Shown here piece by piece: positions 9,073 through 64,000 of a stretch of DNA of 64,000 bases (the stretch's first letter is position 1; the number at the start of each line of letters is the position of its first letter). A program made the position numbers and the translations under genes. This DNA comes from Fibrobacter sp. UWB2 (GTDB lineage Bacteria; Fibrobacterota; Fibrobacteria; Fibrobacterales; Fibrobacteraceae), in the NCBI RefSeq assembly GCF_002210425.1, contig NZ_MWQK01000002.1, forward strand, positions 1-64,000, given 5' to 3'. The notes under the pieces are model-generated. The model was not told where the DNA came from. It was given only the letters and a program-made list of their open reading frames with translations, and did no database searches.

Positions 9073-9138
9073 GTACTCAAAAAAAATCTCAAAAATTTAC
9101 GTTAACCTATTGACTTTGAGTCAAAAATTGAGTACATT
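9073..9138 (+). promoter_or_regulatory. Promoter and operator-like repeats of the first TIGR02147 gene
   Basis: -35 TTGACT at 9110-9115, 17-nt spacer, -10 TACATT at 9133-9138, and the ATG only 6 nt further on. An inverted repeat TTGACT-n3-AGTCAA (9110-9124) covers the -35. A second, wider pair GTACTCAA (9073-9080) and TTGAGTAC (9128-9135) brackets the promoter. The arrangement fits an autoregulatory operator; that role is inferred. Confidence 0.65.
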
Positions 9139-9144
9139 TGGAGT

Positions 9145-9972
9145 ATGGACAAGTTTATTGACATATTCCAGTTTACTCATTTCCGCAAGTACTTGGATGA
9201 ATACCAGGCCGCTCGCGTGCAGACCGATCCTGAATTTACCAGGGCGGGAGCTTGCGCTTTACTTGGTCTCCCAAAGACTCGTAGTTACTACAACGATATT
9301 GTCAAAGGAAAAAAGCTTACTGGGCGCATGATTCCCAAGTTCGTGGAAGTTCTTGGACTCAACAAAAAAGAAGCCAAGTACTTTGAAACGATGGTGAATT
9401 TCGACCAAGCGAAAACGACAACGGAACGCAATGCGTTTTTTGATGAGCTCATCAAGCAGCATCCGGATCCGCACCACATCTTGAACGAAGATGCCTACGA
9501 GTATTACAACCACTGGTATAATAGCGTGTTGTTTACGGCGTTAGATGTGATGGATGTTTCGGATGATCTTGAGCCGATTCAAAAGCGCATTTTCCCGAAG
9601 GTCTCCGTGGGGACTTTGAAGCGTTCGCTCGAATTGCTGGAACGCATTGGCTTTGTACGCAAGAACGAAGACGGCTTCTGGAAAAGCTCGCGCGATTCGG
9701 TGAGCAGTGGGGCTTACAACAATAACGACTTGGTGCGTCAATACCAGTTGCAGTGTTTTGAGCTTTCGAAGCAGGCGTTGCTTGCCGATGATGACAATCC
9801 GTCGGACATGGGAACGTTTACGTTCAGCGTTTCGGACGATGCGTATAAAGAAATTGCCTTGGAAATTCAGAACCTGAAAGCCAAGGTGCGCAAGATTATT
9901 ACGCAAGACAAGAAAGAGGCGACTGGGGTACACCAGTTGAATATTCACTTGTTCACGAATTTAAAAAAATAA
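9145..9972 (+). CDS. TIGR02147 family protein (putative transcriptional regulator)
   Basis: 275 residues. Member of the Fibrobacter-expanded TIGR02147 family (DUF4423-type C-terminal part). N-terminal 80 residues contain FTHFRKYLDEYQAARVQTDP and an HTH-like stretch where helix pairs surround LGLPKTRSYYNDIVKGKKLT, followed by the conserved KFVEVLGLNKKEAKYFETMV. The C-terminal 190 residues are mainly helical. A closely similar paralogue lies at 23962-24801 and a more distant one at 63621. The gene is followed after 18 nt by a lipoprotein gene. The mRNA is probably leaderless (TACATT 6 nt before ATG; the GGAG next to ATG is too close to act as ribosome site). DNA binding is inferred from the HTH-like region. 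Confidence 0.85.
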   Translation: MDKFIDIFQFTHFRKYLDEYQAARVQTDPEFTRAGACALLGLPKTRSYYNDIVKGKKLTGRMIPKFVEVLGLNKKEAKYFETMVNFDQAKTTTERNAFFDELIKQHPDPHHILNEDAYEYYNHWYNSVLFTALDVMDVSDDLEPIQKRIFPKVSVGTLKRSLELLERIGFVRKNEDGFWKSSRDSVSSGAYNNNDLVRQYQLQCFELSKQALLADDDNPSDMGTFTFSVSDDAYKEIALEIQNLKAKVRKIITQDKKEATGVHQLNIHLFTNLKK

Positions 9973-9990
9973 AAACGAGGAGGAATAACT

Positions 9991-10944
9991 ATGATTACAA
10001 ATAAAATTACAAAGTTGGGCGCTGCGCTTGCAATGCTTGGCCTTGGATTGCTTGCCGCTTGTGGTGAGAACAATGTGGCATCGTCGTACAGCGAAACGCA
10101 GACGGGAAAGCCCGTGATTCGGTCGGGAATGCCTATTGCCGAACTGGATACGACTTATATCCGCAAGATTATTGACGAAGGCGGAGATGGTTGCCATGTG
10201 CTTGCCAAGAGTGCTGTTGATGTAGAATCGGATGACGTGACTGAGATTGATAGTGCTGTTACGGAAACGACTATTGTTATGGCCCGTATTACTTGCAAAA
10301 GCTATAATGATATTCATCTATTTATAAAAACAAGAGCGCAAGTGGTCGATGATGCTGGGGCTCCTGTTGTGGGGGCGATTGTTTATGAAAAAGATTGTTC
10401 CTTTGATGATAAAAGTTGCCAGCATGTTACGGATAAGGATGGATACTTTTATATAGATAGTGTAAACTTCCAGACCTATTATCAAAATGAAACGAAGAAC
10501 CCCAAATATGCTTATGTCCCCAGATATCACGAAATTCAGTTGCGTGCGCTTTCTGCGGATTCCAACTTCGGTGCGTTGGTCAGTTTGAATTTTGCTGCAG
10601 CCACTGTTGAATCTGTTGATGATATAGCTGTTGCGGATTTGGGAAAAATAGTTGTAGAACCTGTGTACTCGGCAAAAGTGTATTTGGACTCCCTTTTTGC
10701 GACTGTCGATGAAAATACTCCGGAAAGCGATAAGCCCTATATTGAAGAATGGAATGAGGCGATGACGAAAGGCCTTAGAGAAACGGGGATTTGTGCGAGT
10801 GGATATTTCCCCTGTTATAAGGCTTACGAAGAAGATTACAAAAACGGGTATGTGGTTTTGTTTGGCTTGCCAGAAGGAACTTATAAACTTGGTGTAAGTC
10901 ATGTTTGGGGTCCCCTCCCACAGTTGGTGGTGACAAAGCCGTAG
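9991..10944 (+). CDS. Lipoprotein paired with a TIGR02147 gene
   Basis: 317 residues. Signal peptide with lipobox LLAAC (Cys24) followed by ENNVASSYSETQTG; the other TIGR02147-linked lipoprotein in this window has ENHAGVLTETESG at the same place. Residues 105-150 (QVVDDAGAPVVGAIVYEKDC) look like a carboxypeptidase-regulatory/Ig-like beta sandwich. Several Cys residues may form disulfides. Strong GAGGAGGA ribosome site, 18 nt after the TIGR02147 stop, then a terminator: a two-gene operon. The middle part is noticeably AT-richer than neighbouring genes. Function unknown; probably cell-surface exposed. Confidence 0.75.
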   Translation: MITNKITKLGAALAMLGLGLLAACGENNVASSYSETQTGKPVIRSGMPIAELDTTYIRKIIDEGGDGCHVLAKSAVDVESDDVTEIDSAVTETTIVMARITCKSYNDIHLFIKTRAQVVDDAGAPVVGAIVYEKDCSFDDKSCQHVTDKDGYFYIDSVNFQTYYQNETKNPKYAYVPRYHEIQLRALSADSNFGALVSLNFAAATVESVDDIAVADLGKIVVEPVYSAKVYLDSLFATVDENTPESDKPYIEEWNEAMTKGLRETGICASGYFPCYKAYEEDYKNGYVVLFGLPEGTYKLGVSHVWGPLPQLVVTKP

Positions 10945-10979
10945 TCAGATTATAAATAATACGTTAGAGGAGGAAAAGG

Positions 10980-11014
10980 TTTCAGCGGCTCTTCGGGGTC
11001 GCTGAAATTTTTTT
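10980..11014 (+). terminator. Rho-independent terminator after the lipoprotein
   Basis: TTTCAGCG (10980-10987) pairs with CGCTGAAA (11000-11007), followed by TTTTTTT. A GAGGAGG sequence at 10967-10973 precedes it but no reading frame uses it. Confidence 0.9.
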
Positions 11015-11059
11015 ACACAAAAATCCAATTAGAATTGTTAAATAAATCACTCTTTTTTT

Positions 11060-18210: not shown

Positions 18211-18380
18211 TTCGGGTTCCCCTTCCTGTTACGCCAAAGCGTAATTCGACTTAGATAATATATCATTTCTAGCCCGGATGTGGCTAAGGAAATGTTGAAA
18301 TTTGGGGCTCAAAATGGCAAAAAAGAGGGCCGAAAAGTTTAATTTGTGTATATTTGTCACGTTTAGTAGGAGTGATTTTA

Positions 18381-19223
18381 ATGTTTTTGAAAAAAATTTT
18401 GACGATTGGTTTTGTGGCGGCGGTGTTGTTTGCTTGCGGCGACAACGGTAGTTCTGCGACTGATTCCGATGAGGATTCTTCTTCGTCTGTTTGCGAGGAC
18501 TGCGATGGTTCGAGCAGTTCGAAGGCGAAATCGTCATCGAGTAGCAGTATTCTTGTGGAGTATGTTGACCCCTCAACTGTAGTTAAGGGGACTATGACCG
18601 ATGAACGTGACGGCCAAACCTACAAAACGGTAAAAATAGGCACTCAGACTTGGATGGCAGAGAACCTGAACTACGCCTATTTACATCCTACTTCTGAATT
18701 AGATTCTAGTAGTTTCTGTTATAAAGATAGTGTGAGTTATTGTGAGAAATATGGGCGCCTTTACTTGTGGAGTGCAGCGATGGATAGCTTAGGAAAATTC
18801 TCCATGAATGGCAAAGGGTGTGGCTATGGTCCTTTGTGTTCGCCGACTTATCCGGTGCGTGGTGTTTGCCCTAAAGGCTGGCACCTGCCCGATACAACGG
18901 AATGGAATGCGTTAGTTACCGCAGTTGGTGGAAAATCAGCAGCGGCCAAAAAGCTCAAGTCCAATAGCGGTTGGAAATACTGGCTTCGCGTCTTTGGCGG
19001 GAATGGTTCGGACTCCTATTCCTTTGCTGCGTTGTCTGCTGGCGACAGGTTCTCCGGTGGAAATTACTGCAACGAGGGCGAATACACGCATTTCTGGAGT
19101 TCTTCTGAGGCCAATATTTACAACGCGTACCTCTTGAGCATGGCCGACTACGACGACGCTGTGTCTCTGTATTATGATTACAAGGTCTATGGACTCTCTA
19201 TTCGTTGCGTAAAAGACGAGTAG
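18381..19223 (+). CDS. Fibrobacter major paralogous domain (TIGR02145) lipoprotein
   Basis: 280 residues from ATG 18381, preceded by GTAGGAGTG. Lipobox VLFAC (Cys18), then a Ser-rich linker of about 45 residues (GSSSSKAKSSSSSS type), as expected for a surface-tethering spacer. The TIGR02145 domain follows: DERDGQTYKTVKIGTQTWMA, ENLNYAY, YGRLYLWSAAMDS, PVRGVCPKGWHLPDTTEWNA and the final LSIRCVKDE. A paralogue is at 60391. The family is greatly expanded in F. succinogenes; its function is unknown, possibly surface binding. TATATT upstream at about 18346-18351 can serve as -10. Confidence 0.88.
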   Translation: MFLKKILTIGFVAAVLFACGDNGSSATDSDEDSSSSVCEDCDGSSSSKAKSSSSSSILVEYVDPSTVVKGTMTDERDGQTYKTVKIGTQTWMAENLNYAYLHPTSELDSSSFCYKDSVSYCEKYGRLYLWSAAMDSLGKFSMNGKGCGYGPLCSPTYPVRGVCPKGWHLPDTTEWNALVTAVGGKSAAAKKLKSNSGWKYWLRVFGGNGSDSYSFAALSAGDRFSGGNYCNEGEYTHFWSSSEANIYNAYLLSMADYDDAVSLYYDYKVYGLSIRCVKDE

Positions 19224-22495: not shown

Positions 22496-23965
22496 TTACT
22501 TCTGCAGTGCGTAGTAGGCGGAGAGCCAGGCGTGCAGTTTGTTCCAGCTGTCGCTGCTTTGCGTGACGTCTTCTCCGAGCGAATAGATGACGAAGTCTTC
22601 GAGCTTATGATTCCCCAATGTAATTGGAGGAATGGACTGGAACTGATCGCTGAAGTCCTTTGTGTCGGTGACCCTGCCATCTATGGCGATAACGATATGA
22701 TGAGACTGGATGAATATCGAATAGTGGTGACGTTCTCCGTCCAGAACTTCTTGACAAGACGAATCCTTCAAGGTGTAATGGTTTTCGGTATCGTCTTCGC
22801 CTTCAGACGTTCTTTTATAAATTTCGGCGCAGAGCTGGTTCGGTTCACGTCCGACTTTTATGCTGAAGGCAACATCGCTTTCTTCTTGACGGGTATCCAC
22901 GTAGATGGAATCGGCTGCGCTAGACAAGCTGTCCTTCGTTATCCAGAAACTGATTCCAAGAATGCTGCCGAACGCCTTCCAGCTTTCGTTTTGGATGATG
23001 TTCATGCCGGGAGTCGTTTCGCTGAAAGCCTTGTAGATTTGCACCGGCTGGATGGCCGTTTCGCTTGGGACCACCGAGAACGTGTATGTTCCGACATCGA
23101 TGCTTGGGATGACGGTCAGGTACTTCGAGTTGCTCGGGTCGTTTTCGAACTTGTAGAGTGCAAGCGTGTCGCCGTCGTCGCTAAGAAGGACGGGATTCGT
23201 GATGCTCGTCTTGAAAGTGACGGGGACAATCATGGAATCGAGTTCTGTCTTGTCGATCCAGTATTTTGCGGTGCTCAAGGCGTCTTGCGAGACGATGACC
23301 GGAATGCGAATTTCCGAAACTTCGAGCTTTTTGCCCGGAGCGAAATCCCACAGGACGTCTTGCGTGATGGAGTCCGTGTCTTCGTCCGAAGTCTTGATGA
23401 GCGTAATCTTCGTGAATTCCATGGGCGGAATTTCGTCGAGGATGACGGTTCCGGCTTCGATATCCTTGTTCTGTACGGCGATGCAGTTGAGCGTGCCCGT
23501 GATGCAGAGCGTGTCGCCCAAGTCGAGCTCGTAGGCGCTGAGCTTGAGTTCGAGGCTTGCGTTTTCTTCGAGCTTTACTTCGGGGACGGATTGCGTCTGC
23601 AAGTCGGTGGTGCCTTCTTCGACGGTAATGGTCTGGTAGCCGGACTGCGTGTGGTCCGTGTTGCTAATCTGCAAGGCATAGTCGCCTGCGGTGACGCTAT
23701 CCATCGTGTACTTGCCGTCGTCGTCTGTCGTGGCGGTCTTGATGGGGGCCATGCGGGCTGCAATGTGCGTTGCCGAGATGAGGTTCACCTTGGCGCTTGC
23801 GACCGGGTATCCGCTTTCGTTCTTGACGGTACCTTCGATGCTTGCGATGGTCGTGCCGGATTCAGTTTCCGTGAGCACGCCGGCGTGGTTCTCGTCGGTG
23901 CAGGCGGAGAAAATCGATGCGAGGGCAAAAATCCCTGCTGTATTTAAAATCTTAAAATTCATCAT
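22496..23965 (-). CDS. Lipoprotein with carboxypeptidase-regulatory-like and LamG-like domains, coupled to TIGR02147
   Basis: 489 residues. Lipobox IFSAC (Cys22), then TDENHAGVLTETESG. Residues 42-125 (IEGTVKNESGYPVASAKVNL, DDDGKYTMDSVTAGDY) are a carboxypeptidase regulatory-like beta sandwich. The C-terminal 170 residues have the strand pattern of a LamG/concanavalin-like jelly roll (ISFWITKDSL, HHYSIFIQSHHIVIAIDGRV, HKLEDFVIYS). Start ATG overlaps the TIGR02147 stop as ATGA, so they are translationally coupled. Probably surface exposed with a binding role; substrate unknown. Confidence 0.8.
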   Translation of the reverse strand: MMNFKILNTAGIFALASIFSACTDENHAGVLTETESGTTIASIEGTVKNESGYPVASAKVNLISATHIAARMAPIKTATTDDDGKYTMDSVTAGDYALQISNTDHTQSGYQTITVEEGTTDLQTQSVPEVKLEENASLELKLSAYELDLGDTLCITGTLNCIAVQNKDIEAGTVILDEIPPMEFTKITLIKTSDEDTDSITQDVLWDFAPGKKLEVSEIRIPVIVSQDALSTAKYWIDKTELDSMIVPVTFKTSITNPVLLSDDGDTLALYKFENDPSNSKYLTVIPSIDVGTYTFSVVPSETAIQPVQIYKAFSETTPGMNIIQNESWKAFGSILGISFWITKDSLSSAADSIYVDTRQEESDVAFSIKVGREPNQLCAEIYKRTSEGEDDTENHYTLKDSSCQEVLDGERHHYSIFIQSHHIVIAIDGRVTDTKDFSDQFQSIPPITLGNHKLEDFVIYSLGEDVTQSSDSWNKLHAWLSAYYALQK

Positions 23966-24801
23966 GCCTTAACCTCCGGATCGAGGTTAGAGAACAAGTG
24001 CAAGTTCATCTGGTAAACACCGTTTGCCTTTTCGTTGTCCTCGCTGATGATGCGTCTTGCCTTAGCCTTGAATTCCTGGAGTTCGGATTCAAGTTTCTTG
24101 TAGGCGTTGTTCGAGATGCTGAAGGTGAGCGTGCTCATGACGGTCGGCATCTTGGGGCGCGTGATGAGCGCCTGCTTCGAAAGTTCAAAACATTGCAGCT
24201 GGTACTGCTTGATGAGTTCTGCGTTGTTGTACGGACCGCTGGAGATGGATTCCTTGGTCGGCTTCCAGAAACCGGCTTCGTTCTTGCGGGCGAGGCCCAG
24301 CTTTTCCAAAAGGGATAACGAGTCCTTAATCTTTCCGAGTGGAATTTTCGGGAAGATTCTCTTTTGCACCGGTGTCAAGTCATCTGTAACGTCCATAGCA
24401 TCAAGAATAGCAAACATTGCGCTATGGTACCAATGGTTATAGTATTCGTAGGTGTTCGAATCGAGGATATGCTGCGGATTCGGGTGCAGGTGCAGGAGCT
24501 CTTCCATGGCGGCGCTACGGGCCGTCTCGGTTTTTGCCTGGTCGAGCTTCACCATGGTCTCGAAGTACTTCGCGGCCTTCTTGTTGAGGCCGAGGACTTC
24601 GATAAACTTGGCTGTCATGCGGGGGCTGACCTTTTTCCCTCTGAGAACATCGGCAAAGTAGCTACGTGTCTTGGGGAGTCCGAGCATATTGCAGATTCCG
24701 GTACGGGTGAATTCCGGGTCGGACTGGACTCTGGCCGCCTGGTATTCTTCCAAGTACTTGCGGAAGTGCGTAAACTGGTAAATGTCGATATAATTTTCCA
24801 C
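23962..24801 (-). CDS. TIGR02147 family protein (putative transcriptional regulator)
   Basis: 279 residues from GTG 24801 (protein starts VENYIDIYQFTHFRKYLEE, aligning with MDKFIDIFQFTHFRKYLDE of the 9145 paralogue). A longer in-frame start at 24858 is less likely because it adds 19 non-homologous residues and lies upstream of the -10. The N-terminal region holds the HTH-like LGLPKTRSYFADVLRGKKVS and KFIEVLGLNKKAAKYFETMV; the rest is helical DUF4423-like. It overlaps the lipoprotein gene by 4 nt (ATGA). No Shine-Dalgarno precedes the GTG; TATATT is 6 nt upstream. Regulatory function is inferred. Confidence 0.85.
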   Translation of the reverse strand: MENYIDIYQFTHFRKYLEEYQAARVQSDPEFTRTGICNMLGLPKTRSYFADVLRGKKVSPRMTAKFIEVLGLNKKAAKYFETMVKLDQAKTETARSAAMEELLHLHPNPQHILDSNTYEYYNHWYHSAMFAILDAMDVTDDLTPVQKRIFPKIPLGKIKDSLSLLEKLGLARKNEAGFWKPTKESISSGPYNNAELIKQYQLQCFELSKQALITRPKMPTVMSTLTFSISNNAYKKLESELQEFKAKARRIISEDNEKANGVYQMNLHLFSNLDPEVKA

Positions 24802-24851
24802 GAGGATAATATAATATTTATGAGAACTAAGGTGAGAACATTTTTTGAGAA
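24802..24851 (-). promoter_or_regulatory. Promoter region of the second TIGR02147 gene with three direct repeats
   Basis: On the minus strand -10 TATATT occupies 24813-24808, six bases from the GTG. Upstream are three TTCTCA copies (24851-24846, 24838-24833, 24826-24821), spaced 13 and 12 bp. No good -35 is visible, which would fit activator dependence. The divergent nuo promoter lies within 24860-25029. Confidence 0.5.
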
Positions 24852-63430: not shown

Positions 63431-63561
63431 GTTTTGCCTGTAAGTCTCGATAAATCAATAACTAACGATTAATGACCGAAAACTAACGGCTTACCTTCTA
63501 GTATCATGAAATTTGCATTTTTTGTAAATTTTGCGAAATTTGCTTAAAATTAGCTTGTATT

Positions 63562-63621
63562 TAGCACTAGAGTATCATAGAGTATTGCTTTGTACGATGA
63601 AATAATTTATATTTAGTGCTA
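63562..63621 (+). promoter_or_regulatory. Promoter and operator-like repeats of the third TIGR02147 gene
   Basis: TTGCTT (63585-63590), 17-nt spacer, TATATT (63608-63613), 7 nt to the ATG. An inverted pair TAGCACTA (63562-63569) and TAGTGCTA (63614-63621) brackets the promoter, the second copy covering the start site. The geometry parallels GTACTCAA/TTGAGTAC around the 9145 promoter although the words differ. Confidence 0.65.
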
Positions 63622-64000
63622 TGAAGCCGGTAACGGAATACGAAGATTACCGCATGTATATGCAGGATTATTACAACGAGCGCAAACGCGTCTCGTCGTT
63701 CTCGTGGCGTGAATATACCCGCGCTTCGGGCTTTACGTCTCCGACTTATCTTAAACTGGTGTGTGAGGGTAAAACTCGCCTTTCTCCCCAAGGGGCCGAA
63801 AAGGTGGGTGCCGCAATGAATTTGGCGGGCTTCGAGCTTGAGTATTTCAAGACGATGGTGACATATTGCCATGCCAAGACCGATCAGGAACGCAAAATCG
63901 CTTACGAAGCCATGCTGGAGCTTGCCTCCAACAACAAAGTAAAGGTCGTTGATGGCGATGCGTTCCGGTATTTCGAATCGTGGGTCCATCCGGTGGTGAG
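63621..64000 (+). CDS. TIGR02147 family protein, 5' part (runs off the window)
   Basis: Open frame from ATG 63621 to the window end, 126 complete codons, no stop. The start MKPVTEYEDYRMYMQDYYNE and the stretch YTRASGFTSPTYLKLVCEGK align with the N-terminal HTH-like region of the two other family members (F-T-x-G-x-x-x-L-G-x-P-x-x-x-Y), followed by GAAMNLAGFELEYFKTMVTY matching their LGLNKK...YFETMV. It is clearly more divergent than the 9145/24801 pair. Probably followed by its own partner gene beyond the window. Confidence 0.8.
   Translation, partial: MKPVTEYEDYRMYMQDYYNERKRVSSFSWREYTRASGFTSPTYLKLVCEGKTRLSPQGAEKVGAAMNLAGFELEYFKTMVTYCHAKTDQERKIAYEAMLELASNNKVKVVDGDAFRYFESWVHPVV

Follow-up and report, generated by a model that had tools for sequence, protein, structure and literature searches.

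The window analysed here, a stretch of 64,000 nucleotides (Fibrobacter sp. UWB2, GCF_002210425.1, NZ_MWQK01000002.1, positions 1–64,000, forward strand), carries three modules in which the gene of a TIGR02147-family regulator is directly followed by the gene of a lipoprotein. We propose that these are self-controlled modules, each probably switching one tagged, fast-evolving surface lipoprotein (estimated probability, roughly 0.7). The modules are designated A (9145–10944), B (22496–24801) and C (from 63621), which are numbers 6, 24 and 23, respectively, among the 34 regulators of the genome. Their features are as follows.

9073–9138, + strand: putative operator/promoter A, footprinted in 10 other Fibrobacter genomes, the left edge being sharp
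9073–9080, + strand: operator A part GTACTCAA, with ATCTCAAAA as a further part
9110–9124, + strand: operator A palindrome TTGACTTTGAGTCAA with −35 TTGACT
9128–9135, + strand: inverted copy TTGAGTAC at the 3′ side of operator A
9133–9138, + strand: −10 TACATT of module A (promoter spacing, 17 bp)
9145–9972, + strand: regulator A, TIGR02147/DUF4423 (NCBIfam 355 bits, residues 2–271 of 272; Pfam DUF4423 82.5 bits)
9977–9984, + strand: Shine–Dalgarno sequence GAGGAGGA of the lipoprotein A gene, from the sequence
9991–10944, + strand: lipoprotein A, Cys24, signal peptide ..GLLAA|C24, weak carboxypeptidase-regulatory-like stretch and hypervariable body
10075–10116, + strand: post-Cys tag A VASSYSETQTGKPV, VASS(Y/F)SET(Q/N)TGKPV among alleles
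22496–23965, − strand: lipoprotein B, Cys22, ..IFSA|C22, PF13620 46.5 bits, ATGA overlap with regulator B
23849–23890, − strand: post-Cys tag B NHAGVLTETESGTT, invariant in 12 of 12 alleles
23962–24801, − strand: regulator B, TIGR02147/DUF4423, GTG start (284 bits, residues 2–270 of 272; DUF4423 92.6 bits)
24821–24851, − strand: putative operator B, TTCTCA-N6-GTTCTCA-N5-GTTCTCA, a phylogenetic footprint
63500–63613, + strand: putative operator/promoter C, with AGTATCATGAAA at 63500 and AGTATCAT at 63571, 71 nt apart
63585, + strand: −35 TTGCTT of promoter C, with −10 TATATT at 63608–63613
63621–64000, + strand: regulator C, TIGR02147 (C2:63621–64460 in the genome; 142 bits inside the window, 286 bits whole)

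The order of regulator then lipoprotein, as originally predicted for two pairs in the window, was confirmed for both by profile matches and signal peptides, and their junctions are those described: an 18-nt gap with GAGGAGGA in module A and an ATGA overlap in module B. The third TIGR02147 start proposed at 63621 was also verified (142 bits), and its partner, a tagged lipoprotein that overlaps regulator C by 20 nt, was found beyond the window edge (C2:64441–65850). We place the start of regulator B at GTG 24801 and not at ATG 24858 because the conserved putative operator (24821–24851) falls between the two. Behind lipoprotein A (10960–11016), a Shine–Dalgarno-like AGAGGAGGAAAA without an open reading frame is followed by a hairpin and a T-run (identified by eye), which may be the remnant of a second lipoprotein that was lost, together with the terminator of the operon.

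In the genome (15 contigs, 3.53 Mb), 34 TIGR02147 genes are intact and one is a fragment. Its regulators score 142–375 bits (cut-off, 50), and DUF4423 (PF14394; gathering score, 30) matched 35 places that are the same 35 genes. When each locus was read in the regulator's own direction, a lipoprotein gene lay directly 3′ of 33 of the 34 intact genes (lipoproteins called by pattern and hydropathy, with several start codons picked by position and lipobox). Given that about 8% of genes are lipoproteins in the 20-kb stretches sampled as background (approximately 0.8 Mb), pairing at this frequency has a chance probability of about 1e-35. Coupling by an 18-nt gap or an ATGA overlap, which holds for the window pairs, did not extend to the genome as a general rule: gaps range from −44 to +57 nt, with ATGA overlaps at seven junctions. 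The single orphan (C7:63247–64062, + strand) lacks a lipoprotein partner and has a counterpart in another genus (L124), likely an ortholog, that is also solitary and near-identical at the C-terminus; solitary members of the family therefore exist as well, and the role of the one in this genome may be a different or a central one. L183 and L185 are further loci at which no lipoprotein partner accompanies the TIGR02147 gene. The fragment (C1:786625–786870, + strand) has an internal TAA and lies near a contig end, adjoining an intact module at C1:781674. Tandem arrays of four modules (C5:152486–163567) and three modules (C5:368436–375604) have related partner bodies (body types GRVGDVYP and VSQKGPF), which suggests that new modules arise by local duplication. 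A second tagged lipoprotein sits directly behind partners 13 and 18 (L045:10779 and L050:7260), so that some modules comprise two lipoproteins per regulator.

The pairing extends across the phylum. TIGR02147 is present in 157 of 168 Fibrobacterota genomes, with up to 85 copies. Tagged lipoprotein partners were found at 28 of 30 loci from six genomes of other genera and families, and lipoprotein partners at 36 of 38 loci from a GTDB scan (32 by script and four more by eye, with odd residues before the Cys); the two sets have several loci in common, and the scan, which used a narrower alignment, returned records almost only from Fibrobacterota. Inspection of the gene following each TIGR02147 gene thus revealed an adjoining lipoprotein nearly throughout, in the genome of origin (33/34) as in both phylum sets. 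In one genome with 25 regulators (G031), 21 of the 24 tagged lipoprotein N-termini adjoin a regulator, and six genomes without TIGR02147 yielded no clear tagged lipoproteins, just weak generic sandwich-domain matches, one of which (L210) has a loosely similar NETG segment. On the basis of these genomes, it appears that regulator and tag are retained or lost jointly. Partners outside the genus (L114, L126, L127, L129, L132, L160 and L166) often have NC, QC, DC or KC at the lipidated Cys, a hint that the lipobox may be relaxed in Fibrobacterota. Tentatively, and at rather less than even odds, the modules could form a phylum-wide modular surface system with dozens of separately autoregulated operons in each genome, in which regulator, operator and tag would be fixed and the lipoprotein body exchangeable and recombining.

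Most partners share the motif C[ST][DE]..[VTI]AG..(S/T)E..N.(I/F)A, of which the similar post-Cys segments first noticed in the two window lipoproteins are instances. A profile of this tag (35 residues from the Cys, leave-one-out scoring, threshold of 11 bits) was exceeded by 24 of 33 partners and by 0 of 50 unlinked lipoproteins (Fisher p=8e-14). Among 54 unlinked candidates, four scored high, two being partners whose Cys had been misplaced by the script and two being tandem paralogs of the same operon; the remaining 50 reached at most ≤8 bits, and the unlinked rate is 2/52 with the two tandem paralogs counted. The motif is hence not equally common in unlinked lipoproteins, and its restriction, together with the adjacency, supports the core of the original prediction, a paralogous system of dedicated regulators and cognate lipoproteins. 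Leave-one-out scores in the window were 4.6 (module A), 13.1 (module B) and 18.0 bits (module C). The module A tag is among the weaker matches to the class profile yet its own orthologs retain it, 11 of 14 positions showing no change in 12 of 12 alleles while the body is approximately 55% identical; the module B tag (NHAGVLTETESGTT) is fully invariant in its 12 alleles.

The tag could be a sorting signal only, for outer-membrane surface export, with the link to the regulator reflecting just shared cassette ancestry, a view that can hold together with self-controlled modules and differs from it on the purpose of the tag. The position of the tag directly after the Cys, its conservation in hypervariable alleles and its low-confidence, linker-like appearance in the structural model agree with such a role, and Bacteroidetes have comparable export signals (PMC5080379). 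There, the lipoprotein export signal (LES) is K-(D/E)2 or Q-A-(D/E)2 at +2 to +6 and is general for surface lipoproteins (PMC5080379). Both LES and the Fibrobacter tag are short conserved segments near the mature N-terminus, but the latter (AG..(S/T)E.xN.I/F) lies at about +4 to +20 and occurs in regulator partners only, and the LES consensus is matched by neither of the mature starts, CGENNVASS and CTDENHAG. A general sorting signal should be neither limited to partners nor absent from regulator-free genomes, and many unlinked lipoproteins are without the tag, among them acidic-start ones and FISUMP-type ones that are probably exposed at the surface too. The restriction to regulator partners is therefore evidence against a general export signal, and we consider a role in sorting alone doubtful. 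If the modules form the phylum-wide system outlined above, the tag might instead, as a tentative suggestion, address a dedicated Fibrobacterota export or signalling machine.

Despite the common tag, partner bodies are often unrelated, and several have no BLAST match to any other partner. Their domains comprise ten CarboxypepD_reg, nine Fib_succ_major (FISUMP), two laminin-G, one pectate lyase and one CBM_4_9, types that would place them at the cell surface and at polysaccharides. Lipoprotein B has a carboxypeptidase-regulatory-like sandwich (residues 42–121) and a fast-evolving C-terminal part; its structural model (pLDDT, 59) is poor beyond the first sandwich, and in the PDB it matches generic folds (sandwich and pilin). 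Divergence within one module is uneven. Orthologs of regulator A in Fibrobacter genomes are 96–100% identical (dN ~0, dS 0.3–1.0; flanking genes of the module, dS 0.2–0.9), and those of lipoprotein A are 45–81% identical, mostly 45–60% (dN ~0.3, dS ~1.0). For module B, identities are 94–100% for the regulator and 53–67% for the lipoprotein, and among the closest genomes dS is 0.14–0.27 for the former versus 0.74–1.03 for the latter. Overall, dN is ~0–0.05 for regulators versus 0.12–0.31 for lipoprotein bodies, and body dS exceeds regulator dS in 37 of 38 comparisons (modules 1–4 and A), dS being a rough measure for diverged sequences. PHI-like permutation gave a recombination signal in lipoproteins A and B (p=0.0025, the floor of the test), a weaker one in regulator A (p=0.007) and none in regulator B. 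Because unlinked lipoproteins of the same genomes can vary fast too, the special feature here is the contrast within one operon combined with the fixed tag.

These patterns bear on two further explanations. The modules might result from pure duplication, an ancestral pair having multiplied with adjacency and tag passed on by inheritance and without functional coupling; although the tandem arrays of three to four modules on C5 would fit, adjacency and tag persist where unrelated domains have taken the place of the body, tag residues are invariant in a gene with its body at dN 0.3, and private putative operators are footprinted, which makes this very unlikely. Hypervariable, recombining lipoproteins are typical of antigenic variation, so that the loci might alternatively be phase-variable or invertible surface-antigen switches, but we found no short tandem repeats at the loci and the same operator orientation in all orthologs, and regard such switching as most improbable. 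The phase-specific expression raised in the original prediction accordingly has no support in its classic form, with no simple repeats at the loci and the promoter region in one orientation in all orthologs.

The regulator is predicted to be a DNA-binding protein. An AlphaFold model of regulator A (pLDDT, 85; pTM, 0.59) contains a putative XRE/HigA-like helix–turn–helix (HTH; residues 11–96) and a putative winged helix (residues 112–195). Profile matches of the N-terminal HTH are weak (3kxa, 0.005; 9sf2, 0.05; C.BclI, 0.11); structural Z scores of the N-terminal half are 8.0 to 3pxp and ~7–7.6 to HigA/GraA, near the stated noise level of the tool, and those of the C-terminal half reach 7.8 (1sax), also near noise, with many winged-helix families tied (MecI/BlaI/MarR/ArsR). 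A toxin–antitoxin or defence system was rejected, given no PADLOC match and partners that are secreted lipoproteins of 224–823 aa, as was a phage origin of the module, with no PHROG match.

The resemblance to MecI/BlaI-type winged helices, which envelope sensors control, would suit an arrangement in which the lipoprotein is the input, sensing the outside and informing the adjoining regulator through the tag and a shared envelope relay, with the regulator acting on its own operon. Such signalling could also account for a tag found in regulator partners alone and retained as the body changes, and for a one-to-one pair preserved across the phylum. However, the pair encodes no membrane relay; near-invariant regulators stand against diverging bodies; body and regulator relationships are uncorrelated; and the tags, being similar between modules, cannot carry module identity. 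In a comparison of regulator and partner trees, the co-evolution anticipated earlier was detectable weakly for the tag region (rho 0.17, p 0.005) and not for the lipoprotein body with arrays collapsed. We therefore judge that the lipoprotein is unlikely to be the sensor.

Candidate operators were footprinted in all three window modules. Upstream of module A, the sequence GTACTCAAAAAAAATCTCAAAA...TTGACTTTGAGTCAAAA.TTGAGTACATTT is kept in 10 other genomes, and the 26-nt core of putative operator A occurs once in the genome even with three mismatches. Putative operator B is unique with up to three mismatches, its GTTCTCA-N5-GTTCTCA portion being kept in 12 of 12 genomes, most of which also have the complete triple. 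The GTATCAT pair of module C (−121 and −50) retains a spacing of 70–73 nt in 11 aligned sequences, four of them duplicated copies, while the spacer diverges, and the spaced pair has only two occurrences in the genome. Module C is tandem-duplicated elsewhere (G130:C28, G101:C1, G104:C3 and G105:C1; loci L239–L249), with copies ~2.3–3.9 kb apart whose regulators are ~72% identical and which both have the same GTATCAT pair. Module 4 has a similar conserved upstream pair (GTATAATA). These module-specific putative operators, the two longer of which are unique in the genome, agree with the prediction that each regulator is dedicated, and footprints and uniqueness are consistent with a regulator that binds its own promoter in an autoregulated operon.

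More generally, short repeated words occur 5′ of the regulators and differ between modules. Direct repeats 68–75 nt apart were found in 10/33 module upstreams versus 10/177 controls (p=1.5e-4), and repeats 20–27 nt apart in 12/33 versus 21/177 (p=1.2e-3), spacings (~21 and ~71 nt) that are close to whole helical turns; the footprints weigh more than these p-values because the spacing windows were set after seeing the words. Permuting own distal against own proximal words gave a moderate signal (154/20000, p ~0.008), several modules having no clear repeat. A TANNTT −10 lies ≤20 nt from the regulator start in 20 of 33 modules versus 110 of 641 controls (p=8e-8). In about ten modules the −10 ends 6–8 nt before the start codon, with the −35 at 17–18 bp (module A: 6 nt before the ATG), and the regulator mRNA is thus predicted to be leaderless or nearly so. 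Shine–Dalgarno sequences precede 19/33 partner lipoprotein genes versus 7/33 regulators; with a near-leaderless regulator and a Shine–Dalgarno-led lipoprotein, one mRNA is predicted to yield little regulator and more lipoprotein. Judged by position in the sequence, the sites over the −35 in modules A and B would be compatible with repression, and the site just upstream of the −35 in module C with activation or cooperative autoregulation.

Operator words showed no correlation with overall regulator identity (rho 0.13, p 0.22). Operator cores correlated with the recognition-helix octapeptide (rho 0.42, p 0.003, 13 modules; rho 0.39, p 0.044 with sister pairs dropped), a result we treat as a lead only because the words were aligned by hand. 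Regulators 4 and 26 agree in the word GTATAATA and also in the residues SPNF of the recognition helix, and in one regulator clade many words look like variants of TTGT(A/G/T)NNAT. In a phylum-wide modular system, operator specificity might conceivably be read from the recognition helix (SPNF with GTATAATA, SA[VI] with GTATTCC).

In the mechanism that we propose for the self-controlled modules, the TIGR02147 gene would be the first of a two-gene operon, sometimes with a tandem extra lipoprotein. Its cytoplasmic product, an XRE-type HTH followed by a winged-helix DUF4423 half, would bind its own operator, located at the promoter of the same gene, and so switch itself and the next gene, which encodes a lipoprotein whose class-specific tag of ~15 residues comes after the lipidated Cys. 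This protein would probably be transported to the cell surface, where its body may contact plant polysaccharide, phage or protists and would evolve fast, with recombination contributing, against a constant regulator, operator and tag. Some 30 exchangeable surface lipoproteins would thereby be switched separately in the genome, each by a small autoregulator of its own.

CI-like and XRE autoregulators form switches with tandem operators. The modules resemble them in the predicted HTH, repeats at multiples of the helical turn and sites beside or over the −35, and differ in the second winged-helix half, the lipoprotein partner and some 34 paralogs per genome with different operators. Surface lipoproteins of the SusCD type in Bacteroidetes are under sigma/anti-sigma or hybrid-sensor control, with many units per genome; the Fibrobacter modules likewise have a dedicated local regulator for each of many surface-protein units but, unlike the SusCD units, include neither a TonB receptor nor a sigma factor or membrane sensor. 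It has long been asked how Fibrobacter, which has no cellulosomes, attaches to cellulose and degrades it, and its numerous lipoproteins remain for the most part unexplained. The modules provide a rule that groups some 30 lipoproteins per genome into one regulated class, name the likely regulator and, for several lipoproteins, also the operator, and offer a tag that can be used in a surface-export test. Paralogs with one-to-one regulator–operator pairs could serve as a data set for a protein–DNA recognition code, and they could supply orthogonal switches.

The window regulators are members of TIGR02147 (Fsuc_second) and DUF4423 (PF14394). Neither a function nor a partner or operator is stated in the TIGR02147 family record. 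In the literature searched, we found no mention of TIGR02147 and no description of the two-gene unit, and DUF4423 was mentioned once, for a Bdellovibrio protein in a table (PMC12546842). New here are the footprinted putative operators of all three window modules, which differ between modules, the enrichment of the ~71-nt repeat spacing, the −10 beside the regulator start codon with the near-leaderless mRNA that it predicts, and the near-fixed regulator versus diverging lipoprotein, the latter with elevated dS and signs of recombination, in one unit with a conserved tag. No discussion of these regulators appears in a phylogenomic survey of the phylum, which reports the FISUMP (TIGR02145) domain in high copy in Fibrobacteres (PMC4704652). 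This domain occurs in 9 of the 33 partners and is absent from 24, and most FISUMP proteins have no link to TIGR02147. One FISUMP-type lipoprotein in the window (18354–19220) has 69–211 matches per genome in 11 related Fibrobacter genomes, with a 99% ortholog in one genome and 50–60% identity elsewhere.
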